From assembly GCA_018127085.1 (NCBI GenBank), contig CM030721.1, positions 62,001 through 126,000 on the forward strand: a stretch of DNA of 64,000 nt, read 5' to 3'. The position numbers and the translations under genes are program-made. How positions within the stretch are numbered: position 1 is the stretch's first letter; every line of letters starts with the position of its first letter. Below the pieces are notes generated by a model. That model had not been told where the DNA came from. It did no database searches and saw only the letters and a list, made by a program, of their open reading frames with translations. The stretch is from Pneumocystis sp. 'macacae' (taxonomy: Eukaryota; Ascomycota; Pneumocystomycetes; Pneumocystales; Pneumocystaceae). Below, one piece after another: positions 3,630-58,700 of the stretch.

Positions 3630-5829
3630 ATGAATATTTTTCCTGATATATTTCAAAAAATAGATAATATAGGGATACAGGGTGAAGACAATATACCATA
3701 TTCTAACTTTGGAAATCTTTTGGATGTAGATTCTATTGTTTTTTTAGAAAATAACTCTTTTGAACAGCAGTTATTACATCTTATATCATTACTATCTATT
3801 CCTCGATCAAAATTATTAAAAAAAGATATTTCTGAGCAATCTTTAAAAGAATGTTTTAATACTCTTGTTGAAGTATCTATATATTTTTTATATTGGATTG
3901 AAACTGCAGTTTTTATATTTAGATTTCTAGATTCTGATGATGATATTGAATGGATTTATCATGCAAAAGATTTATTTGATGAAATGGAAAAGGGGATTGG
4001 AAATGCATCTCTTGTTTTTAGTAATTTCATGGAAAAAGCTTCTGGTTTTATCTTTCAAGATTTTCCTGACTCTGATTTTATAAATTCAAGGTATCAAAAA
4101 ATATCCAAAGGTTGGATATTTATTAAAAAATTTCTTGGGTTTTTAAAATATCAAATAGAGATTTCAAAAGAATGGGTAGATTGTATTGAAATATTAAATC
4201 AAATAAACCAGGAACTCAAGAAATGTGACATACTTGTTTTTGAAATTAAAGAACGAAGTCTCGATATTCCTTCTATTTCTCATCAATTTATAGAATTCAC
4301 ATCTTTAGAATCATTTGTCAAAGACGTTTTTGATGGCGAAAGGATAGGAACTCTGGAAGAAATAAATTCAACAGATATTTTGAATAAATGGAATAGGAAT
4401 TGTCAAAATTTCATTTTTCAGGTTCATGAGAAAATAAAATCACTTGAAACATCTCTTATTTTTTTTAAACTCCGGATTGAATATTTTAAAGAAAAAGCAT
4501 TAGAGTTATTTCCTAATGCTATCCATGATATAGAACAAAGAAGACATAATTTAGAAATTAAATGTAAAAAACTGCAGGATGATTTTTCTTCTGTAAAAAA
4601 GAAGTTTCAAGAGGACAAATGGATGCTTGTTTTCTCTCATGTTAATAGACAAGTAAGATTTATGGCATATTTATTTATATGTTAATTTATGAATTTTTAT
4701 AGGTAACAGATCTTATGGACTCATTAGAATCAGAAATACGGAAATTTAACATTTCCTCATCTATAATTAAAAAAGCAGTTGAACCATATAAGACATATAA
4801 AGTAAAAAGAGATAGTTATAGTATGTATTTTCAAAAAAAATATCAAGTTCCGTTAAATATTGACAAATTTTAGCTATAATACGGATTATTACTCTTATAG
4901 AATGGGGAATATGGAATAAATTAACAAATAATAATCAGATTATTGAAGGTTATAATAATTTATATCAAAGATGGAAAAATCTAAATAAAGATATTATAAA
5001 AATTGATAATATAGTTTCGGAAAATACTACATTCTCTAAAACCTCGGAAAATGATAGAAATTCTATTATTAATGATTCGGAATCAGTAGCATCGAAGTCT
5101 GCTAAATTATGTACAACTCCAAAAACTCCTCCGTTTCCGATAAAATATTATTCTTTGATTCCAGTATCTAAAAATAAACCTCGACCCCTGTTATATGATA
5201 TGTTGAAAGTTAAATCCAAAATTCAGTCTACACCCAGAAGTTTACAATATCCTAATTATATTTATGATACATGTTCTACGAATCATACTGATAATATTAA
5301 TTTATCTAAAAGATCTAACATACCCTCATTTATAGAAGATACACCTATACAACTTTCCAAGCTTAAAATATTTCCTGCTATAATGGAAAAAACTGGAATG
5401 AGCAATAAAATTGCATCTCAATTAAATTTAAAATTAACACCTACAAAAAATGTTTCTAACCTAAAACTGACACTTACAAAAAATGCTTCTAACTTAAGAC
5501 TGACACCTACAAAAAATAATTCTAACTCAAAATTAACGCCTACAAAAAATAGTTCTGATTTAAAAATGAAAATACATATTCCAGAATCAAGCATTTCTCG
5601 TGCTTCTGCTTCTTTACAACATATGGTTTCTACCGAACAAATACCATGTCAAAATTCTAATATAAAGTTAAAGAAATATAAAGAAAATATTTCTTCATTT
5701 TCTAATATACCACGCCCATTATTTCAAAAGATACCATCTTTTTCTATCTTAGGAAATCAAAAACCTTCTATAAAAATGGTATCACCACAGAAGAATATTT
5801 TTGCTCAGGGTATTAGTTCATATAATTAA
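3630..5829 (+). CDS. KAR9: Kar9-like spindle-positioning / microtubule plus-end adaptor
   Basis: Three exons, 3630-4652, 4703-4820 and 4874-5829 (introns of 50 and 53 nt), give 698 residues. The N-terminal 400 residues are helical and include the Kar9-type block EDKWMLVFSHVNRQV, which continues across the first intron as VTDLMDSLE. The C-terminal 300 residues are disordered, basic and Ser/Thr/Pro-rich. They contain two SxIP motifs (SNIP at 5314-5325 and 5701-5712), the signature used to bind EB1-family proteins such as Bim1/Mal3, and four tandem 11-residue repeats built on LTPTKN. In yeasts Kar9 links EB1 on microtubule tips to myosin V/actin to align the spindle. The Kar9 family call rests on the helical domain plus SxIP motifs; sequence identity to known members is low. 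Confidence 0.65.
5425..5556 (+). repeat. Four tandem 33-bp repeats inside the KAR9-like gene
   Basis: Four in-frame 33-nt units at 5425, 5458, 5491 and 5524 encode NLKLTPTKNVS-like repeats of 11 residues. Three of the four keep a T-P-T-K core, which fits the minimal CDK site [S/T]-P-x-[K/R]; the second unit has L in place of P. The units sit between the two SxIP motifs. Confidence 0.9.
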
Positions 5830-9558: not shown

Positions 9559-12500
9559 TTATGATTCATTTACATTTAGCTTTAATTTAATATTCATGGA
9601 AGCAAGTTCAGTTGCAAGGTACTTAAATACATATGGTAATGCAATAACAGCAATATTGTCGCCACCTTTAAATTTTCTACCAATACTGTCTTGCCATATG
9701 TCGCCATCGTTTTCAAATCCAGTAGCTTCAGATGCACAGAGATGACATCTTACATTTGAATTAAATGTATTTCCTGTACTTATTGTAGTTATGGACGGTA
9801 TAAGAGAAAGAATAGACCCACAGGTCCTGCATATCCAAGATTGTGTATAATCACTGCAATTCATTAAACGATCTTGTAAAATATATGCTGTTCCATGTGC
9901 TATTATACTATCACGTTCCATTTCTCCAAAACGGATACCTGTATATATTCAAAAACAAGCTTTTGGATAAGAAAGAACGCTTACCTCCTGCTCGTTTTCG
10001 TCCTTTAACAGGCTGATGCGTAAGACTGTGGACTGGACCCGTTGTTCGCACTTGAAATTTATCTGATACCATATGTCTGAGTCGTTGATAATAAACTACT
10101 CCAACAAATATTTCAACCTCCATGATATCTCCCGTGATTCCAGAATAAAACGTCTCATTACCATTATATGCATAACCAGCTTTTATTAATTGCTTTCCAA
10201 AATAATCAGCTGCTGTATTTTTCTCATTAAAAGTAAATGGAGTAGAATCTTCTACTAGTCCATGTAATGCACCTGCTTTACCTGCCATACTTTCTATAAA
10301 CATTCCTGGAATTTTCAATATATAGATTATATTTATTTACAATCCTACCTATAGTCATACGAGTAGGAAATCTAAAATAAAGTCAAATTTGGATTTTAGA
10401 AGATATATATGAATATACGCATGAGGATTAATAATAATGTCAGGCTGAATTCCACTTTCACTAAATGGCATGTCCGCAGCTGGCCATTTTTGAGAACAGA
10501 CACCCTTTTGTCCATGTCTGGAGGAAAATTTGTCGCCAATAGTAATAGGACGAGCTACCCGAAGTTTTATATGAATGCACTGACATTCCATATCACCTGA
10601 ATCATTCCCTGATTTAATTAGTTATTATTATTTCAAATATACAAGAAAAAGGACCAAGTAATCTAACTTCTTCTACAAAAACATCTTCTGTCCCATGGTA
10701 TTCTTGGATTATTGTTTTTCCTGTTGTTTCATTAAAATAAGCAGCCAAAGGGTCACCATCTTCTAGTTTCACGCCAATCATTGGCAGTCCATCTGCATCT
10801 AATTTTTCCAACCATTTTGGATGAAGTTTATCGTTTCCAAACCCAAAATGGTATATAATCTGTTCCCCTTTTTGTCTTTTTTGTGCTAGATCTACTTTCT
10901 CACTTTTGTAGATTGTAGCATAAGCAAATCCCCTTTCATATGATGATTTATTGACAACCAGGGCATCTTCCATATCATAGCCTGTATATGAAATCACTGC
11001 CACAACAGCGTTTGTTCCATTAGGAAAGTTATCAAGTCCATAAAGATCATATGTTTTTGAACGAACAATAGGTGTTTGTCCTGTCTGTAACATATAAAGT
11101 TTGTTATCAGTTCTATATCTCAATGATGATCCAGGTGTTCCCATGGTTTGCTTTAAAGATTAGACTATTTTACATCAATAATAATATCCATACCTTTGCC
11201 ATTTGACATTGGTACATATTTCTTGGAGATTGATTAAAATCGGAAAATGGTGTTAAAGATGCAAGAATTGAAAACATATTAGATGTATCTATTTCTGAAT
11301 GTGAATATTGTGCATCTGTTTCTTGAGAAAAGTGAGAATCGATACTTATATTTAAGTATACTTGTTCAAACGATCCAATAATATCTTCTTTATTCAATGG
11401 AAGATATTTAACAGGACGAGTCATTCGAGCTCTTGATGAAAAAATATATAATCCATGGTATTGACCTCCTTCAGATTTTGGAACTAACCCTATTTCAAGT
11501 TCTAATGGAATATTATGAGAATTTTCGACTTTCCAATGACGAAGTAATCGAGCAATGTGGGATGCCATTTCATGTGTACAATAACCAATAATTTTCCCAT
11601 TAAGCTGTACACTCGAATATTCTCTACTCAACATATTCGATGTTGGATCTACCCCGAGCCTTACAAGCAAATATGGTATGGAATCTACATTAATATTTGA
11701 TGTAATGATTCTACATTTGCTTGTTAAGTGATTTAACAAGCCACATGGTGCGCCATCTGGCGTATGAACAGGGCAAATGAATCCTTACATAGTCAATTTA
11801 AATCAAATAAATAATAAAAATATACCCCATGCCTCTGGAAGAAGTTTGCGAACTGTTACAGTTTTAACGTCTGCAAAAAATGCACCTCTATGCACTGTTC
11901 TAAAATGACTCAAATAACGATAAAAGTTGAGTTTCTCCGAAATTATAGTAAACCCCGTTGCTTGCTGCAGATCCAACCCAGTAGAACTAACTAAATTGCC
12001 CGTACTTAGAAAATATTGTAGTTTTGAGCCAATATCATTAGGAACTCTTTGAAATAATTTAGAAATATATTTCTTATCGAAAAAGTTTACCGAATTATTC
12101 GGTTTCCGAAGATCCTGCATAACAGTGTTTCTCAAAGAAAGCAAGTAATCTTCTATTTTTTCTTTTATAATCATACCGTACAAAAACCCACCAAGAAGTA
12201 TCTCCTGATTTTGAGCAGAATCCGGGTTATCCGGGCAACATTCTCCTGAGACCAGGCTATAAAGCTTCCGTATCATAAATCTAAAAAGTTAAACACGCAA
12301 AATACATAGAAATATACATTAACATGCGGAATTTATCATAGTTATCGTGCAAATGAACCAGAACAACCTTTCTCAGCAACTCCTCGCCAACCTTCTCGTG
12401 TGTAAGATCCTCATCTACGTTTAATACTACCCGAAACTTCTCTCCCAAGTATTGCAAGGTCTGCTTCTGGTTGTAAAGCTCATAGCTTTTATACGTCCTA

Positions 12501-13514
12501 AGCAGAATCTCAACCTGGTCTACCAAAATCGTGTCTCCTCTGTCCTTTCCAACAACCGAGTCAAATATTTCCTTATCATTCGTATTTATAAGTGCTTTCA
12601 GAATCATGACTACGGGAACCAAGTACTCGTTTTTTCTCCATGAAAACCGGAAAATACAGTTCCCATCGCTGAGATAGTGCACCGTGTTTGTATGTGACGT
12701 CTCGTCCGGCCTTACACTGCGGATCTGCGTTCCAAACTTCGTATAGTTTTTGCCTCGGTTTGAAAACGACGACCGCTCCAGCCCCATCACATAATTCCTC
12801 CTCGGAATAATAAGCATCCGTATCACCTTCTCGTTCCCATTCACAATAAAGTATCCCCCGAGCTCCTCCGCCTCTTCTCTACACTTAACCAGGTCTGCCG
12901 GTGACAGCTTCTCCATATGACACCGATTAGACTAGACCATCAACACCCAGCCCTCCAATCTCCCTCACCCACCCTGACCATAATAGGTATCTGCCCAAAC
13001 TCCTTTATATCCGTCGTCTCCTCCCCCCCATTCACACTCCACGCCACCTTCAGAAGAAGCCGTGCCTTGTACGTGCAGAAACGCTCCCGGCACTGCATCG
13101 CTAAGCTGCTTGTCCCCACTCACTCTCCCCATACCTCCGAAGGCAGTATCTTCCTGTTGACACTTGTCCGTTCCCGCATCGGCAGAGTCGGCTTTGCAAT
13201 CTGGACCTCCTCAACACGGACTACATCCACCAAACCCGTCAGTGCTTCCCCTGCAAATCACCGCCCATACACGACAACTTGTTCCCCAGTCTGCCATTTT
13301 TCCTGTCAAAAACCGACTTCTTCCCAATGTCCTGCACCGCAAGATTCAGCAGCTGCTCGTCCGTCAGCGCATTGAAAGACTTGATGTGTGGCTCGGTAGT
13401 CGCCACAAGCTCCGGATACGCGTTTTTCTTCGCACTTGGGCTCCGGAACTCCGCCTCCTTCTCCACCGTGTTGAAGCGCCTAATGCCCATCGGCGGCGCG
13501 GCCTGCGACTGCAC
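9559..13514 (-). CDS. RPA2: RNA polymerase I second-largest subunit (A135)
   Basis: At least nine exons encode the Pol I-specific beta-type subunit. 5' exons: 13271-13514, 13135-13220, 12973-13092, then one from 12931. Landmarks: [19 protein letters not shown] across a splice, [56 protein letters not shown] (fork region), [16 protein letters not shown] (hybrid-binding and catalytic-core region), [19 protein letters not shown] and a C-terminal zinc ribbon (CRTCG...CHLC at 9720-9840). With the largest subunit it forms the rRNA-transcribing active centre in the nucleolus. The gene crosses a steep base-composition gradient: the 3' exons are AT-rich like the rest of the window, the first four exons are GC-rich, and the donor of the third intron is GTGGGT. 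The protein is intact across the gradient. Confidence 0.95.
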
Positions 13515-13561
13515 AACACCCTTCGCTGCTCATTCTAAGCTATCTACGCTCCATTGCGCTA

Positions 13562-13668
13562 CCCTAACCCTAACCCTGCCCATGCACCCTAACCCTAACC
13601 CATCCCCATGTATCCTAACCCTATGAATCCTAAACCCTACCCCAACCCTATGCTAAACCCTAACTCTG
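13562..13668 (+). repeat. Degenerate telomere-like CCCTAA repeats, upstream of RPA2
   Basis: Eight CTAA cores, mostly in the form CCCTAAC, occur within about 107 nt, starting as three near-perfect units and decaying to the right (CCTAAACCC, CTAACTCTG). The array fills the 288-bp gap between the RPA2 start (13514) and the PIL1 stop (13802), so it sits in the RPA2 promoter position. AAACCCTAA-type teloboxes are known binding sites for telobox/Tbf1-like factors at ribosome-biogenesis promoters; whether that applies here is inference. Confidence 0.85.
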
Positions 13669-13801
13669 CCACCGCCCGCCCTGCTCATGCAACCCCAACC
13701 CTGCCCTCCTGCCTCACGTGTCCATGCTGCTCACCCTCTGCAACATGCGCGCCCGCCAAAGCCCCCACCAGGCCCCGCCAAAGCACTCGCTGGAGCACCC
13801 G

Positions 13802-14686
13802 CTAAAGGCCCTGCTTCTCCAGCTCCCGCCCCACCACTGCAACCGCCGACTCCCCCCGCCCCCCCTCCAGCTGCCCCGGCCGCCACGCCTGCAGCGCCTC
13901 CTCCGCCTCCAGCAGGAGCTCCCTCGCCTCCTTCTCCCCCTCATACCCCACCCGTGTGTCCCCAGGCATCACTGGGCTGTCGTCCAGCAGCTCCAGCAGC
14001 CTCCGTCCATAGTGCGACAGCAGACACTGCTTCTCCCCCCGCTCCTGGACCGCCTGGAAGTACATGTTGTATGCCTCCTTCAGCTTCTGCCGCGACACAT
14101 GTGTCAGCTGCGCCTCGGCCACCAGGTTCTCTGCCTCCAGCCGCACCAGCCGCTGCTCCTGCTCCCGCACCCTCCCCGACTCCCCCTCCCGGTGCCTCAG
14201 CACTGCAATCTGGTCCGCCAGCTTCTGCTTTGCATCCCGCAGCGGCTGGACCGAGTTCTCGATGTTCCGGATCGTCTTCAGCACCCGCCGCGAGTCGTCG
14301 ATCTGGCTCGCATGGTTCTCCTCAATGTCTCCGATCTCCGACAGAATCACGGCAACCTTGTCGCTCAGGTCCCCAATCGCCTCGTCTCCCGTCTCCTCTC
14401 CTGTCGCCATTGGCAACGCCCCCTCCTACTCCCCAACCCACCCCACTGCGACAGCTGCTGCGCAACCGCCTGTTGCTCGCGCCCCGCTGCCTCATATGCC
14501 GCAACGAGCCCGTTCTCCGTCTTGATTAGCTTCGGCAGGCTTGTGTGTGTCGCGTTTCCCCGCAGACTCAGAAATGCAAAGCCTGTGTCTGTAAGCAGCG
14601 CCACTGGCATGCGACCCACGGTGTCCGCCTGTGCGGGACGAGCGCGAGGCCGGCCGGCTGTGGCGCAGCGAGTGCGAGCGGTTCAT
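13802..14686 (-). CDS. PIL1: Eisosome core component Pil1/Lsp1 (BAR-domain)
   Basis: Exons 14620-14686, 14442-14588 and 13802-14400 give 270 residues. The start MNRSHSLRHSRPA resembles the basic Pil1 N-terminus; an in-frame Met at 14701 is an alternative. The BAR-domain landmarks are all present: SLPKLIKTE, AQQLSQWGEETGDEAIGDLS across the second splice, IRNIENSVQPLRDAKQKLAD, RLEAENLVAEAQLTHVSRQK, LKEAYNMYFQA and RRLLELLDDSPVMPGDTR. Pil1 proteins assemble into the furrow-forming lattice under the plasma membrane. The gene lies at the GC peak; both introns begin GTGGGT (the first only 31 nt, the second 40 nt). The C-terminus is shorter than in typical Pil1 proteins and, after the BAR region, is compositionally biased (Gly, Glu, Arg), so the last 25 residues may be drifting. 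Confidence 0.88.
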
Positions 14687-14743
14687 TGCTCGGCGCCCCA
14701 AGTGCTGTCCTTGATAAGGGGTTGACTGTGCGCGCTCTCGACT

Positions 14744-14816
14744 GCACGTGTGATGTAGTGGTTATCATGTTCGCCTCACACGCGAGAGGTCCCCGGTTCG
14801 AGCCCGGGTACGTGCA
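14744..14816 (+). tRNA. tRNA-Val (anticodon CAC), no intron
   Basis: The 73-nt sequence folds cleanly: acceptor stem GCACGTG/TACGTGC, D arm ATG-CAT, anticodon stem TTCGC/GCGAG around loop CTCACAC (anticodon CAC), and T arm CCCGG/CCGGG with TTCGAGC loop. The internal promoter A box (TGATGTAGTGG) and B box (GGTTCGAGCCC) are intact. The D-stem pair is A-T where many valine tRNAs have G-C, with both sides changed. No TTTT run, the normal Pol III stop signal, follows on the plus strand until about 15622. Confidence 0.95.
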
Positions 14817-14926
14817 GCGCGCCCGCTGCCTTATTGTGTGTCCGAGCACGGTCTGCACAGCCGTCTGCGCGGAGATGCTGCGCTGATTGGGTGGCAGTGT
14901 GCAGTGCCTGCCAGCATTGGGCTGCA

Positions 14927-14980
14927 TGCAGGGCTAGGTAGGGCTAGGGCTGGGGCTCCAGTGGAGGGCAGGGTTAGGGC
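14927..14980 (+). repeat. Degenerate telomere-like TTAGGG repeats, right side of island
   Basis: GGGCTAGG, GTAGGGC, GCTAGGGC and GGTTAGGGC occur within about 54 nt between the tRNA-Val and the SHR3 stop. They read as TTAGGG-type units on the plus strand, opposite to the CCCTAA array at 13562-13668. The array is short and imperfect, so it is less certain than the left one. Confidence 0.6.
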
Positions 14981-14996
14981 GGGAAGAGGGTGGGGG

Positions 14997-15631
14997 CTAT
15001 GTCTTGGCATTGGTGTCGGGGGAGCGCCTGCTGTGATGCCTCTTGGGGCGCCGGAGGGGAGAGGAGTGGAGGACGGTCTGCTCGGCACAGAACTGGCTGC
15101 TCTGGAGGACGAGGATGCCGATGAGGATGAGGGCGAGGACGACCTGGGAGGCGGCCAGCACCTGGAGGGCATCGGGGTTGGTGAGGGGTGTGTAGCTGTG
15201 GAGGAAGAGAGTCTGGAGGCCTGGGGGGATGAGTGTGGGAGATGAGGGGGGAGGGGAGGGATACCGTGTACAAGATAGACGATGTAGACGAGGATGCCGG
15301 CGACATAAAGGACGAGGCTTCCGCTGTCGAAGAGGAGGTTGCTCTGGTTGCCGCCATAGAGCTTGATGGCGTGTGCAAGGAAGCCGAGGCAGATTGCAGC
15401 ATGGAGGACGAGTCTGTGTATGGGTGGAGCAGTGTAGAGCAGCTGGTAGTATGTTTCGGCATTGAGGAGCGCCTGGTCAGTGACGGGATTGACCCAAAGG
15501 GTAAAATGGTCAACAATCCACTAGTGGGGGTGAGTGAGTGTTTATTGGCAAGAACATACATTGTTGAAGAGGATTCCAAGAAAAAAGGAGCTGCTGCAGA
15601 CAATGAGGTAGCTAGCGAGCGTTTTTTTCAT
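14997..15631 (-). CDS. SHR3: ER chaperone for amino-acid permeases, Shr3/Psh3 family
   Basis: Three exons, 15560-15631, 15265-15520 and 14997-15220 (introns of 39 and 44 nt), give 183 residues. The first membrane segment SYLIVCSSSFFLGILFNN is followed by WIVDHFTLWVNPVTDQALL, then three further hydrophobic stretches (LVLHAAICLGFLAHAIKLY, LVLYVAGILVYIVYLVH, LAASQVVLALILIGILVLQ) and a basic, Arg-rich tail. Four membrane segments and this N-terminal pattern match the Shr3 packaging chaperone, which holds amino-acid permeases in the ER membrane until they fold and exit. The gene is on the right slope of the GC island. Its coding strand is C-rich while that of PIL1, transcribed the same way, is G-rich. 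Confidence 0.8.
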
Positions 15632-15903
15632 TTTCTTGGTGTTCTTATGGAAACCGAGGCTGTCGAAGGCATTTGGTGTGGCGAGGATGAACGAGAGGAC
15701 GAGTGTTGTTTTCTGAGGAGGCGCTGAGCAGCATGTCTTGGACAGCAGGACAGCTGTTAATAGCCAGTGGGGGCTATGTATCGTTTGCCTGGTCCGGCAT
15801 TGCTGTGTTTTTGTTTGAATCTACAATAAGATGCCCAGCCTATAGATCAAGTAGGACAACGCAACGGCTACCTGTTGAAAATCTTTGCGAGTTCTATCAT
15901 GGA

Positions 15904-17177
15904 TTAGTATATGGGAAGGGAAGGTCTGGATGGACTTTTGCGAAGCGGATCCCCAGGCTTGAGTTCTGGAAGAACCACTTTCCACTCGATATACGCATTG
16001 CCCTTCTTTGAACTGGACGCAGAGCGCGATGTATCCCATATAGGCATACCCTTTCCTGAAAAAACATCAACACGACCTAAAATATGGTAAGTTTTTGAAG
16101 ATTCCGGGGAAATGGGGCTAATATAGACCCGACTGCACCGTATCACCTGGGCGTTTTGTTACATTGAAATAATCTTGATTGAATAGCTTGATTTTCCGCG
16201 TCCATTCGCCTAGTAATGCATCTAAAAGAGAAATAGTTTCGGTTCGATAAAGATCGTTGTTTTTTCTTCTCCAGCCGCTTTTTGAGTAAGGTTTTTCGAC
16301 AATAGTGATATAAAGATCCCCTGCTTCCCAATCTGGACTTTCATTTGCCTCGTTTTGGAAAACAATTTGATAGCCATACGGTGCACCTGGTGGAATATTT
16401 AATGTATATGTTTCAGTATCTTGCATAACTTTGTTTCCATTGCAAACAGTGCATGGATAGGAAACAATATGTCCTTTTCCAGAGCATTCATCACAGCTGC
16501 TTTATTAGTGAATGTGTTTATCAAGACGATGACATACATAATTTGATATGTTTGGTATAGCCCTGGTATTACCATTTGACGTACAATATGGATACCATGT
16601 CCGTCGCACTTGGGACATAGAGTAGAGCTATGCTTATGCTTAGGATCTTTTCCTGATCCCTGGCAATGACGACATATGATTTGTTTGTTGATATTAATAG
16701 TAATCGTGGACCCATAATATAACTCTTCCAGTCCAACTTCTATAACTTTTTCCATATTAGGGCCACGTTTTGCCCCTTGAAAATGCTTTTCAAATATTTT
16801 TGAAAAAACATCAAATGGATCATAATATTCGCCGCCTTTATTTTCTTCGTGCTTTTTTAGGCCTTCCTCTCCATGCATATCATATATTTTACGTTTTTCA
16901 GGGTTGCTTAGTACTTCATATGCATAGGCAATATCACGAAACATCTTTTCATCTCCACCATTCTTGTCTGGATGCCATTTTTTCGAAAGACGCAAATAGG
17001 CTTTTTTTAATTCTTTGTTGTCTGCATTACGGTCTACATCAAGGATCTAAATATGTATTATTTTTAACTTTTAGGAATATATTTTTGTTTAACCTTATAA
17101 TAGTCTGTTTCTGCTAAAATAAAAGAAAAAAGGAAGACAGAATAAACTAAGTATATAAATAGATGTATTTTTATCAT
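15904..17177 (-). CDS. SCJ1: ER-lumenal DnaJ co-chaperone (Scj1/ERdj3 type)
   Basis: The first exon encodes a signal peptide ([19 protein letters not shown]) and TDYYK; a 47-nt intron leads to the J domain with the HPDK motif and ending before [10 protein letters not shown]. Then come four zinc-binding CxxCxGxG-type repeats ([32 protein letters not shown]), the last two after an intron near 16,510, and the substrate-binding C-terminal domain ([43 protein letters not shown]). The family stimulates BiP/Kar2 ATPase in ER protein folding. The 3' end is uncertain: the frame reaches a stop at 15904-15906, but a further intron and short last exon are possible. The intron near 16,130 needs an unusual GTCTAT donor. 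Confidence 0.85.
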
Positions 17178-29902: not shown

Positions 29903-31310
29903 TTCATGTGTTTTAGGTAATTATAAAGTACTCACGGAGGTTTGACGCCGTTAGAAAAATCCTAAGTGAATTATGATTAATGATAAAATGTAAAAGCATT
30001 AGATCTTTTGAGTAAAAACGTGTTTAAAAAATGTATTGTTTTTGATTTAATAAAAGATGTTATAGAAAAAAAATTCTAGTATACTATAAAGTATAGTTGA
30101 CTTGAAGATTTAAATAAAGTAAATTTTTGTATTTAAAAACATGATTGTTATATAATATATAAAGTATTTTTGGATTATATTTTTATATTAATTATATTAA
30201 TTATAGTTTATTTTTTATAATTGATAATCTTAAGAAAATAAATAAAATGGTTATTTCTGTTTTTACAGAATATTTTTTATTTTTAGAGATTTTTATATTA
30301 TAGTGTTTTATAATAAATTATTGTTATAAATTATGGTTAGTTATTTTTATGGTTTAAAAGAAATTATTTTTAATATTTTTATATGTTTTTTGAAAAATAT
30401 TTACGATTAAAATCATTAAAATTATTGTTAAATGAAGTTTAGTATAAAAATATTTTCAAATATTTAAGTGTTTTTGAAATAGATTTTTTTGAGTATTTAT
30501 TAAAAGTATGATTTTTTACATTTGAGATTTTGAAATAATGTCATATTTTTAAGTTTCTAAAAAATGTACGATTTTATTTTCTTTATAATTATTTGTAAAA
30601 CAAATAAAAATATATATTTATAAATTATAAAGTTTATTTAAATATCTATTTTTTAAATTTTTTACTTTAATACATTTAATATAAATATTTTATATAAAAT
30701 GAATTAGTATAGAATCAATAATATTATTTTTTCATATAATGATAGATATAATGTTTGTTTTAAAAAAAAATAAAAATATGACATATTTTAATTGTAAATT
30801 ATTTTTTGAAATATTTTATAAATATTGTTTAGAATAAATATAAATTATTTTTTAATAAAAGTAAAAAAAAAAAATATCTTTGATAGTTATTTAAATATCT
30901 AAAAATATATATTAAAGTTCATGTTTTAAGATTTAGAATTTTTTTAAATCTGAATTATAAATGTTTTTAAATTTTATTTTTAAAAGTTAAATAATTTTAA
31001 AAAAATTATAATAAGTTATTTTTTATTTTTATAAATTAATATTTTGACAAATCTAACGTATTTTATTGTTTTAAAGTACTTGTTTAAATAAAAATCTAGA
31101 TTTTTGAAATTTTTGATTATTAAACGAAAATATAATATTTAAAATAAAGATAAATATGTAATAAAATTTATTGATTATTTTTTGTTCATTTTTTTATAAA
31201 AATATTTTTTTAATTTGATCGTTAAATTGTTAATTAAAAATACTGATAAAGGGAAAATATAATTAAAAAAGTGGTTTTATAAATATATACTAATAAAAAA
31301 GAGTTTGAAA
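29903..31310. other. 1.4-kb extremely AT-rich gene-free region
   Basis: Between the divergent PUP1 and VPS71 genes. A sample line (30901) has 7 G+C in 60 nt, about 12%, well below other spacers. There is no sustained open frame, tRNA or tandem repeat; it is a mixture of A and T runs with scattered single G/C. Near 29,930-29,960 a short piece on the minus strand (GATTTTTCTAACGGCGTC) ends at a good GTGAGT donor and could be an untranslated or alternative PUP1 first exon. Confidence 0.6.
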
Positions 31311-31883
31311 ATGCCTTTTGTTTCACCTGTTGAGAACTTTACTTTAAATCATAAAAAACGGCCTGTAGATAGAATTAAATGTATTTTTTGGTCATTTTAA
31401 AATAATCTAATACATAAAGTTATGACGATGGATTCTAACACGCAAATGAGACATATTAATCGCCATCTTGCTGAACTAGAGAGAGATAATTATAATGACG
31501 TGAAAATTGAACTTGCAAAAAATGAAGGTATTATTATATATTTATATATATTTAATGTTTTTTTAAATTAAGAATTTCGTTCCAAAAAAAATAATGCAAG
31601 TGTAAGAAGAATTCTGCTATCAAGAAAAACGTTTGCAATGCATTTGGATGAAGCGGTATGATATAAATGTTTCGTATTATTGTTTATTTAATATAAATAA
31701 AAGGGCACAAATACTGGTTACCATTTAGCAGCTGTTGGACCTTCAAATAAACCACCTATTCGTTTGTGTATTATATGTGGATATTGGGGAAATTATGCAT
31801 GTAACAAGTGTAGTGAACGATATTGTTCCAAATCTTGTGAAGTTATACATTTAGAAACTAGATGCATGAAAACATATGTTTAG
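31311..31883 (+). CDS. VPS71: SWR1 complex subunit Vps71/Swc6 (HIT zinc finger)
   Basis: Four exons encode MPFVSPVENFTLNHKKRPVD, MTMDSNTQMRHINRHLAELE, EFRSKKNNASVRRILLSRKT and a C-terminal exon GTNTGYHLAAVGPSNKPPIR. That exon ends in a HIT-type zinc finger: CIICGYWGNYACNKC followed by SERYCSKSC and HLETRC. Three introns of about 40-50 nt separate them. Vps71/Swc6 (human ZNHIT1) joins Arp6 in the SWR1 complex that loads histone H2A.Z. The protein is about 143 residues, shorter than the budding yeast protein but like other ascomycete members. The stop is 69 bp from the convergent DHR2 stop. Confidence 0.88.
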
Positions 31884-55781: not shown

Positions 55782-58700
55782 ATGCGTGAGTGGGAAACAG
55801 AATTTGAAGAAGAATTAGAGGGGCTAAAATCAAGTGGACCCGATGTTGGGTGGATGGATGATGTAGATTTATTGGATAATGAACTTCCAGATGAAATTCC
55901 AGGAGATTCGATAGTTTTAGATGAAAAATGTCCTTTAGATTCTCCAGATGATGGTGATGAATTAGCATCAATTTTGAGAGAAGGTTTTGTAAAACCTTCT
56001 AGTGGTGCAGATGGGGTGCAGGCACCAGTGCAACTTCTTGGTTTTGGATGGTCTATGCCAATGATGAATCAAAGATGGGGAGAAGAGAAAATGTCTCGAG
56101 AATCTATTTTAAGAGAGTGTTTTCCAGGGTTTCGAGAGAACGAGGTGCTTAAATTTTGTGAACTATTCGTTACAAAGAAGGCTTATTTGATTCCTGTGAA
56201 ACATCGTGTGGGACGCAGTAAGTAGTGTTTCTAGCGGTGATGAACCGCGGGTGAGTGATAGAATTATTGGTTAACTTAAAGATTAGCATGTTTTCCGAAA
56301 TGGGTTGGATTGGATGTAGAGCAAGACGATGCACAGGCGTTTAGCATGTTTGGACGGTTAATACATCCCAGATGGGATGATGAGGTAGTCTATACGATAC
56401 CTTTTTCAGAAAAAGTGAATGAACAAACGAACGTTGATAAAGAGGCACCGGATGTTCTTGTATTTTGCTGTGAAACATAGCATAGGAGTGACTAATGCGT
56501 TTCAGTATGCATCTGAGTCTAATGAAATAAATCATGATTTGCATTTAATATGTTTCGATTGGTACAGGAGGGTTTTTTCCGATGAGTTTTCTCCATCTAA
56601 GAATGTAGCATTTGTTCGACCTAATTCAAAAATTAAATTTATGGGCGAAGGTTTTTTTTCTCAGTTTTATATTGATGATCGGATATTTTCTGGAAATATT
56701 GAATTGACACCATCTGTGCAACTTAATTTTAATGATCCTTTTCTTCTTCTTGATATTCAGAAAGTTGATTTAAATGATTCTAAGTATCTTGCAAATGAAC
56801 GTTCTTTATTATATAATGATTTATCACGAAAATATAATATATCAAATGATGAAGTTTATGATCAGTTACGTCAAAATCAACAGGCTCGTGTTCGTCAAAC
56901 TTTAGGTCATTTGTCAATTGAACATGGATTGGTTGCTGATCGATTGCAAAGTCCTTATTATAAAACAAGACTTTCAAAAACAGAATGTCGTCTCTTTCAT
57001 AGACCTGTGATTGCATTTAAAATCAATTATGAAATTAAATTTGAGAGAATTGGATCACGAAAGAAAAAAGATCGAATAAAAGATCCTAAGATATTACTAA
57101 GTACAACTAAAGGTGTCACTCTTAGTGATAATTCGACTTATGTATTGATGGAATATTCTGAAGAATATCCTTCTGTTATTTCTAATCCAGGTATGGGATC
57201 TAGGGTTGTTGTATTTTATCGCAAAAAATCAGATGATGATTGTACAAGACCAAAAATGACAATTGGTGAAACACACATTTTAGAGCCTCAGGATCGTTCG
57301 CCTTTTTGGAATTTCGGGACAGTAGATCCTGGAGAAACTGTACTTACTTTGTATAATAAAATGATACGAGCTCCTATTTTTGCGCATGAACCTGAAAATA
57401 CTGATTTTTTGGTTTTACGGTATGATTGTTTACATTTTGATTATTGGTGGTTAATTGTATTAGAAATACATCTTCACAAGGGTCAAAATATTATCTTCGT
57501 AGTATAAAGTATCTTTATGTTATTGGTCAGACATTACCTGTAATTGATGTTCCTGGTCCTCATTCTAGAAAAATTACTATGGTTAGTAAGAATAGGCTTA
57601 AAATGATCTGTTTTCGTCTTTTGCGTCGTGAGGAAAGTGGTAAAATTCTTATTAAACAAATGGCACATCATTTTCCTGATCAAAATGAAATGCAACTTAG
57701 ACAACGTCTTAAGGTTTGATTTTGCTTTTTATATTTATTTAGTATCTTAATTTTATCAAGGAGTTTATGGATTTTCAAAGGAAAGGTGATGATCAAGGAT
57801 ATTGGAGGCTAAAATCTTCTGAGGTTCTTCCCCCTGAAGTTGTTATTCGTAGTATGGTTTCACCTGAGACTGTATGTCTTATCGAAAGTATGCAAGTTGG
57901 TCTTCAAAATCTCGAGGATGCTGGTTATGGTCGAGCTGTAGAAGATGAAAATATGGATGAGACATGTCTCAGTATTGATCAACAATTAGTTCCTTGGATT
58001 TTAACACGAAATTTTATTAACGCTACTCAAGGGAAAGCTATGTTAAAATTACATGGCGAAGGCGATCCAACAGGTTGTGGCCAAGGATTTAGTTTTATAA
58101 GAACATCAATGAAAGGAGGGTTTAAATCATTAGATGAAACAATAGATGATAAAGCTGATGGAGATAAATCAAAAACAAATCATGGATATAATATAGCTAA
58201 ACAATCAAAGGCTTATGAGGATGAGATCGCAAGAATATGGAGGTCTCAACGTATTGGTCTGAGTATGATAGGAAATGCATCTATGGCTGACTTGGAATTC
58301 GAGGATTCTCAAAAAGATTTTACTAATGATAATAAAATGGATGCTGGATGGGACCTATCAACTCCGCAATCTACAGATCTAATTGAAAATGATGATTATT
58401 TTTCTATGAATTCTCAAATAGGTACTAATCAAACTAATAAAGTTTTAAGAATTCAGAGACTTATACGAAATTCATTTGGACAATTAGAAAGAAAAGTTGA
58501 AGTAGTTCATAATATTAATGTTATACGAGCATATATAAGACATAGACAACTAATTGATGACCAAACTACAATGATGGAAAAAATAGGGCCTACAGATGAT
58601 GAAGATGCTAATAGAAGGCGTAAGAAATTATTAGAAGAGCAGTTGGCACGATTAAGACATAATCGTGAAAGGAGGCAGGCTCGGAAAGCTGCTAAAGCTG

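Follow-up and report, generated by a model that had tools for sequence, protein, structure and literature searches.

The genome of Pneumocystis sp. 'macacae' contains about 56 clusters of G/C runs, and every cluster read is a GC-rich island running through ordinary genes, with the complete islands C-rich to the left of a centre and G-rich to its right. One island lies in the stretch of DNA analyzed here, a window of 64,000 nucleotides (GenBank assembly GCA_018127085.1, contig CM030721.1, positions 62,001 to 126,000; window coordinates are used below), where it crosses the genes RPA2 and PIL1. Telomere-like words are far denser in the islands than local composition predicts, and on the lineage of this fungus the changes in these two genes run mainly from AT to GC. 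We consider it rather probable that an island marks a fixed recombination-initiation site with GC-biased repair and an error-prone, telomerase-accessible outward strand extension.

GC-rich islands in the window and in the genome

In 200-bp steps, GC content in the window climbs from 0.29 (12001) through 0.40 (12201-12600) and 0.48-0.59 (12601-13600) to 0.72 (13801), and descends through 0.60-0.67 (to 15200) and 0.59-0.45 to 0.43 (16001), 0.36 (16801), and 0.20 (17001). Neither edge shows a step at this resolution, which bears out the smooth climb and fall described in the original prediction, made from the letters of the window. The core of the island, where smoothed GC exceeds 0.5, spans 12778-15497, with shoulders to ~12400 and ~16400. 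Beyond 12-17 kb the GC of 500-bp steps lies at 0.10-0.37, with one exception (0.42 at 56001-56500); positions 30001-31500 form a very AT-rich trough (0.10-0.19).

The rise crosses RPA2 (second subunit of RNA polymerase I; Pfam Rpb2 domains), on the minus strand at 9559-13490. Its GC content at third codon positions (GC3) runs from 0.75 in exon 1 (13490-13271) through 0.66 (13220-13135), 0.70 (13092-12973), and 0.56 (12931-12318) to 0.29 in exon 5, where the AT-rich exons begin; the GC-rich 5′ and AT-rich 3′ parts that had been predicted for this gene are thus confirmed exon by exon. At the top of the island, the eisosome gene PIL1/LSP1 (minus strand, 13802-14610; exon 1 14610-14442, intron 14441-14401, exon 2 14400-13802; identified by Pfam) has a GC3 of 0.83. 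The PIL1 intron and RPA2 introns 1-3 have a GC of 0.56-0.66 (RPA2 intron 4, 0.24), and the spacers 0.60-0.69. Third positions, introns, and spacers are all raised together, which indicates the action of a process insensitive to coding function.

The original prediction presented a lone island, and this does not hold. Genome-wide pattern searches for G/C runs (8,274,841 bases, 19 contigs), with the matches clustered, gave at least 55 further clusters, or about 56 with the window island, on all 16 large contigs or chromosomes. The window island has no match in the patterns and was added by hand, so the catalogue is incomplete; later contigs are possibly undercounted, and clusters with a single pattern match are mostly unchecked. 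Filtering by eye took out places less than ~25 kb from contig ends, matches on C17-C19, and runs made purely of G or C. All 24 loci read out of the 55 are GC islands (23 in the metaprofile set plus locus L056). The 23 islands read extend over 2.6-4.8 kb above a GC of 0.5, as far as read, and reach maxima of 0.70-0.79. In the metaprofile (at most 23 of 24 loci per bin), GC has a plateau of ~0.65 and falls below 0.5 from 1.75-2.25 kb off centre.

Among the matches listed, each large contig carries two to five clusters, the window island counted, with a variance/mean ratio of 0.19 for the counts per contig. The spacing is also even: the 40 gaps (mean 120 kb) have a coefficient of variation (CV) of 0.52 versus 0.82 for random placement, and none of 5000 placements was as even (C12 being taken as ~470 kb long).

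Some island genes look like housekeeping genes: a ribosomal S4-type protein gene, RPA2, and a histone H3 gene, the last at L016:846-1125. The CENP-A (cnp1) gene also lies in a GC island, at L023:1449-1808; when a hand-joined query was searched against PDB sequences, cnp1 ranked first. Runs of at least 15 G (or C) occur, among the matches listed, at C2:14234, C5:13245, C6:520751, C10:17583, C10:306591, C12:166683, C12:445201, C13:16012, and C14:19666; six of these nine sit less than 20 kb from a contig end.

Mirrored G/C skew and telomere-like words

The sign of the GC skew changes at the island centre. In the window, the cumulative G-C count has its minimum at 14618, within a centre (14600-14660) at the 5′ end of PIL1. 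The top strand is C-rich along the left arm (12778-14618; 200-bp skew -0.17 to -0.55 over 12401-14600) and G-rich along the right arm (14618-15497; +0.08 climbing to +0.46), so that the skew of the island goes from about -0.5 to +0.46 with its zero near 14.62-14.65 kb. The original prediction had missed this sign change, along with PIL1 at the island top and a tRNA-Val (CAC) near the centre. Outside the island, the left flank of the window (1-11 kb) has a skew of about 0, and positions 18000-64000 have a skew of about +0.2 over 46 kb, seen alike in noncoding DNA and plus-strand open reading frames (ORFs) and weaker (+0.07) in minus-strand ORFs.

When each GC-rich stretch is divided at its midpoint, a split chosen independently of the skew, the 11 complete islands (10 besides that of the window) are without exception C-rich on the left and G-rich on the right, and L056 shows the same mirrored skew as a twelfth. 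The first eight islands fetched were chosen partly because their pattern matches hinted at this order; among the next 12, not chosen for skew, all seven complete ones agree. Skew is negative on the left in 22 of the 24 metaprofile loci and positive on the right in 23. The exceptions (L032, L037, and C2:497k) hold essentially one side; L032 and L037 are mostly right parts, and L017 is a left part only. L034 is a double island: its skew turns from C to G at two points ~1.2 kb apart. On average the top strand has A 0.17, C 0.46, G 0.21, and T 0.17 at 0.5-0.75 kb to the left of the centre, and A 0.17, C 0.21, G 0.45, and T 0.16 at 0.5-0.75 kb to the right. The AT skew is equal between the two sides (difference -0.002; 95% interval -0.050 to 0.047).

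The third-position skew has the sign of its side in all 16 Pfam-matched ORFs counted (14 genes). Eleven of these are transcribed outward and five inward, the latter being a DEAD helicase and a UCH (L021), RSC4 (L027), separase (L033), and Smr (L026). Of 30 ORFs preselected by GC3-GC2 (third- minus second-position GC) and searched against Pfam, 20 matched, the CDC20 match lying under Pfam's cut-off. Two ORFs of L032 and one of L037 (centre outside the locus), together with the SWIRM/amine-oxidase ORF of L034 (which spans a reversal), were omitted; PIL1 exon 2, the 5′ part of RPA2, and the SHR3 region were not counted because they are not in a single frame. Since the skew follows the side even in genes transcribed inward, gene transcription is not its cause, and gene direction was rejected: all five inward ORFs carry the sign of their side and not that of the gene.

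We modelled the skew at stationarity, with mutation biased toward AT and a bias toward GC, and tried 12 single asymmetric changes for a skew of 0.38. At equal transition and transversion rates, only C-to-G on the outward strand gives this GC skew with an AT skew of ~0; C-to-T or C-to-A gives an AT skew of size 0.32-0.34.

In three of 25 islands, the skew zero is located at or close to a tRNA gene: in the window (tRNA-Val [CAC], plus strand, 14743-14818, 125 bp off the centre), in L019 (37 bp), and in L056 (overlapping; this locus was read because its tRNA had been noticed). Among the matches listed, five of 40 tRNAs are within 3 kb of a catalogued island, with 1.6 expected, and a further one, noticed when its island was read, makes six of 41; tRNAs were rejected as a general cause, since they would explain few islands. 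One reversal of L034 sits between diverging genes, and the centre of L021 between converging genes. A 7-mer scan for a common DNA motif at the centres gave composition-like words only. Between islands we found 76 matches of shared sequence, the best 25 of which are mostly a GCATACA-type array and histone genes. Degenerate alternating purine-pyrimidine arrays (GCATACA, GCATATAC), mostly off centre, are common to several islands (L030, L034, L035, L024, L028, L037, C1:156k, and C2:196k).

Telomere-like units occur at these nonterminal places beyond chance. The 9-mer CCCTAACCC or its complement is found 75 times in 85,805 bp of island, versus 3.0 expected from local composition, and at least once in 20 of 24 loci. 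Of the other 251 words with this letter composition, none occurs more than 22 times, and the top two of them (22 and 16) are pieces of telomere phase. In the 22 loci with both arms of at least 400 bp, CCCTAACCC lies 50 times on the left and five times on the right (three of the five in L037), and GGGTTAGGG lies 20 times on the right and never on the left; the G-strand of the words thus mostly points outward from the centre. Their distances to the centre are 352-2608 bp. No telomere word lies less than 300 bp from a centre in these 22 loci, but with only 0.27 expected there, the empty central zone is not in itself significant. Genome-wide, ACCCTAACCCTB has 58 matches (reversed control, 5), and 37 of the 58 are within 4 kb of a catalogued island, a span that makes up 5.4% of the genome.

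In the window, a degenerate telomere-like array reading CCCTAA on the top strand occupies the PIL1-RPA2 spacer (13561-13690), and one GGGTTAGGG with several CTAGGG-like words, also on the top strand, lies in the tRNA-SHR3 spacer (14930-14982). Clusters of telomere-like 12-mers outside the catalogue, at C1:55908-56737 and C15:226181-226299, are perhaps weaker islands. At the contig ends (loci L052, L053, L054, and L055), the left ends of C2 and C8 have a GC of 0.55-0.67 and a skew of -0.24 to -0.69, and C2 carries degenerate CCCTAA/CCCATA there. GC at the right end of C2 is 0.28-0.33, with a skew of +0.52 to +0.75, and the left end of C3 is neither clearly (GC 0.31-0.55, skew -0.38 to +0.15).

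Two further genes lie on the right side of the window island, both on the minus strand and both matched by Pfam: the SHR3 chaperone gene (approximately 15004-15630), transcribed toward the centre, and a DnaJ-family gene (approximately 16118-17046) on the falling GC flank. These two gene calls, like that of RPA2, had been made correctly in the original prediction. A 33-bp tandem repeat of 4.2 copies occupies 5428-5565, in an ORF whose KAR9 match is just under the Pfam cut-off.

Direction of change and competing explanations

Judged by its protein sequences, the genome is that of a Pneumocystis that is sister to P. jirovecii. For spliced PIL1, identity is 86% with P. jirovecii, 85% with P. wakefieldiae, and 82% with P. 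canis; spliced RPA2 shares 89% of its residues with P. jirovecii, 88% with P. oryctolagi, and 85% with both P. carinii and P. canis. The reported divergence between P. macacae and P. jirovecii is ~16% (PMC7940399). We assigned a change to the lineage of P. macacae where P. jirovecii matches the commonest residue of the other Pneumocystis and that residue is seen at least twice, and amino-acid changes were classed by the smallest codon change. The outgroups for PIL1 include two unnamed sequences.

In PIL1, the own lineage has 34 changes (AT-to-GC:GC-to-AT 19:3), 12 of them at or beyond position 228, near a C-terminal gap, and the P. jirovecii lineage has seven (2:4). RPA2 residues 1-346, on the island side, have 30 own changes (18:5) and 13 on the P. 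jirovecii lineage (1:8), of which three (103-105) resemble a mis-annotated intron; from residue 347 onward there are 17 (8:5) and 28 (8:13). Pooled over PIL1 and RPA2 1-346, the ratio is 37:8 versus 3:12 in P. jirovecii (P = 2e-5), or 31:6 versus 1:11 with PIL1 reduced to its safely aligned core. RPA2 is accelerated on the island side (30 own and 13 sister changes versus 17 and 28 on the AT-rich side, P = 0.003), and PIL1 has a C-terminus shortened by at least 20 residues relative to other Pneumocystis. Many of the RPA2 and PIL1 changes postdate the split from P. jirovecii. In the P. jirovecii Pil1 annotation (P0122), the N-terminus is extended by a glycine-rich segment, a hint that the DNA upstream of PIL1 is GC-rich there too. 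The predicted excess of AT-to-GC substitutions is therefore present at the protein level in two genes, and its occurrence on the own lineage supports GC-biased conversion.

In the explanation that we favor, the island centre would be a long-lived site that starts homologous recombination, most likely a meiotic double-strand-break hotspot. GC-biased repair of heteroduplex would lift GC over ~2 kb on each side, which is about the length of a conversion tract. Repair synthesis would move outward from the break as D-loop extension, and lesions on the exposed or new strand would be fixed as C-to-G, leaving the outward strand G-rich without A/T skew. C-to-G changes are known for Rev1/Pol zeta synthesis and reportedly occur near breaks in human oocytes. 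Finally, outward 3′ ends might occasionally be extended by telomerase prior to re-annealing, yielding telomere units with their G-strand outward, 0.35-2.6 kb off the centre. If raw break ends were healed at the centre, the word order would be the opposite; outward extension of invading strands gives the observed one. What is new is the strand-specific footprint, for which the mechanism is a proposal: we infer double-strand breaks, meiosis, D-loop extension, asymmetric C-to-G change, and telomerase from the composition, skew, and words. A SPO11-type domain is encoded in the genome, and three other Pneumocystis species are reported to have mating and meiosis genes and to transcribe them (PMC4764891).

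Several points weigh against this explanation. GC-biased conversion by itself predicts neither the mirrored skew nor the telomere-like words. The originally predicted stable hotspot of GC-biased conversion is thus supported in part: the AT-to-GC excess and the rise of all site classes agree with the data. With transitions two to four times as frequent as transversions, the C-to-G model gives an AT skew of 0.10-0.19 and not 0, which makes C-to-G a lead and not a proof. The polarized changes come from two genes of one island at the protein level, the AT-rich part of RPA2 also tilts from AT to GC on the own lineage (8:5), and the comparison of island with outside on that lineage alone is not significant (P = 0.14, or 0.13 with the PIL1 core). 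The bare telomere 6-mer is only 2.4-fold enriched inside the islands (105 versus 44 expected) and is not enriched outside them (19 versus 38 expected). No 9-mer occurs in 141 kb outside islands, where 0.13 are expected and the absence therefore says little; 21 of the 58 12-mer matches are not near a catalogued island. Because the skew in part dictates how the words are oriented, their density is the stronger evidence.

The main rival holds that the islands are replication origins, where outward leading strands turn the outward strand G-rich and telomerase could heal nearby fork breaks. About 56 evenly spaced sites (CV 0.52 versus 0.82, among the matches listed) would suit a slow-growing 8-Mb genome, the skew sign and the outward-pointing words fit, and so would the skew of about +0.2 over the right 46 kb of the window. 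However, 6-kb stretches at ~19-27 kb from seven isolated islands (six of them read) do not have opposite skew: the far-flank means are -0.05 on the left and -0.03 on the right (noncoding, -0.038 and -0.023), values among which weak eukaryotic skews could hide. Moreover, origin firing alone neither lifts GC to 0.65 nor yields an AT-to-GC excess, and A/T skew is absent. Replication origins are thus an unlikely explanation, if one to be taken seriously.

We give little credence to a second rival, in which open chromatin and divergent transcription form R-loops that make the nontemplate strand G-rich, as at CpG-island promoters. The position of the window's centre at the 5′ end of PIL1, the tRNAs at or near three centres, and the near confinement of G-quadruplex motifs to the outward strands (101 and 83 versus 0 and 2) are in its favor. 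Against these, the same side-dependent skew is found in inward genes (five of five ORFs counted, plus the SHR3 region), the L021 centre lies between converging genes, and CpG is not enriched in the islands (observed/expected 0.81).

Capture of old chromosome ends or subtelomeres by internal fusion or insertion, leaving words and skew behind, has a slim chance of being correct. Some contig ends do resemble island arms (high GC with C-richness at the left ends of C2 and C8, G-richness at the right end of C2, and an unclear case at the left end of C3), but a fusion would order TTAGGG before CCCTAA, whereas the islands show CCCTAA and then TTAGGG. The content of the islands is ordinary genes, and no link from an island to an end appears in the best 25 of the 76 shared-sequence matches.

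Scarcely probable is selection on the composition or expression of island genes, even if some of these look like housekeeping genes: GC is raised in introns and spacers as well as in codons, its slope runs on across gene borders, PIL1 is altered at residues common to other Pneumocystis and has a shortened C-terminus, and the genes affected have unrelated roles. Contamination, horizontal transfer, or misassembly, for which we found no supporting evidence, is very unlikely to the point of being negligible, as the original prediction had argued for the first two, given the smooth edges, the 86% (PIL1) to 89% (RPA2) identity to P. jirovecii orthologs, and the presence of such clusters on every one of the 16 large contigs.

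Relation to known systems

Fixed recombination sites of this kind would bear on the permanence of hotspots, the strength of conversion bias, and strand-specific mutations from repair synthesis. The genome provides replicate sites by the dozen, with a sharp centre, along with a control inside a single gene (RPA2) and a sister species for comparison. It is possible, and we suggest it tentatively, that the islands are a fossil recombination map readable from a single haploid sequence, with each centre a break site, the skew giving the outward direction of repair synthesis and its C-to-G errors, and the words the action of telomerase on the 3′ ends of extended strands prior to re-annealing. If true, this would be a strand-resolved footprint of the polarity of meiotic repair, fixed at about 56 evenly spaced permanent hotspots. 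The islands could thus reveal recombination sites in this fungus; to our knowledge, reliable continuous Pneumocystis culture does not exist. Caution is also advised, since substitution tests on PIL1, RPA2, H3, and the CENP-A gene may take conversion bias for adaptation.

The gene Fxy/Mid1 at the mouse pseudoautosomal boundary is said to be GC-poor in one part and GC-rich in the other, being crossed by a recombination border; RPA2 resembles it in this respect, although Fxy/Mid1 is a single site, and we know of no mirrored skew there. Meiotic hotspots of budding yeast are stable over time, punctate, of kilobase scale, and compatible with genes. They lie in promoters, whereas some of the islands found here have their centre at a 5′ end or a tRNA and another has it between converging genes; we know of no islands of 65-75% GC at such hotspots. 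Skewed replication origins share with the islands a sign change at the centre, a G-rich outward strand, and even spacing; unlike them, the islands show no replicon-wide skew (seven flanks on each side) and a strong local rise in GC.

We found no description of such islands in Pneumocystis in the open-licence literature, judged by title and the start of the abstract. A preprint on Pneumocystis centromeres plots GC along P. macacae chromosome 14 (PMC10327204), where the islands may be visible in print; its text does not contain "GC-rich" or "skew." According to the same source, regional centromeres are, like the islands, kilobase-sized, gene-containing, and without a shared motif, but they occur once per chromosome, with a GC on average 3.9% below the rest in P. 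murina and P. carinii. Regional centromeres were rejected as an identity for the islands by number (two to five clusters per chromosome among the matches listed) and by this published GC.

Interstitial telomeric sequences are reported to be inserted during double-strand-break repair in mammals (PMC7215372). As here, these are short telomere-like units at internal sites; the units described above differ in being clustered in islands and mostly in one outward orientation, and their insertion is putative. The nearest described case is the runaway GC evolution of gerbils, where GC-biased conversion is reported for the Psammomys Pdx1 region (PMC7403616) and other clusters (PMC7574485). Like the islands, the gerbil regions combine extreme local GC through ordinary genes with an AT-to-GC excess and a faster, partly damaging change of proteins. 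They comprise one large region and clusters at megabase scale, in contrast to ~56 evenly spaced sites of ~3-5 kb, and it is the mirrored G/C skew and the telomere words that set the islands of P. macacae apart from them.

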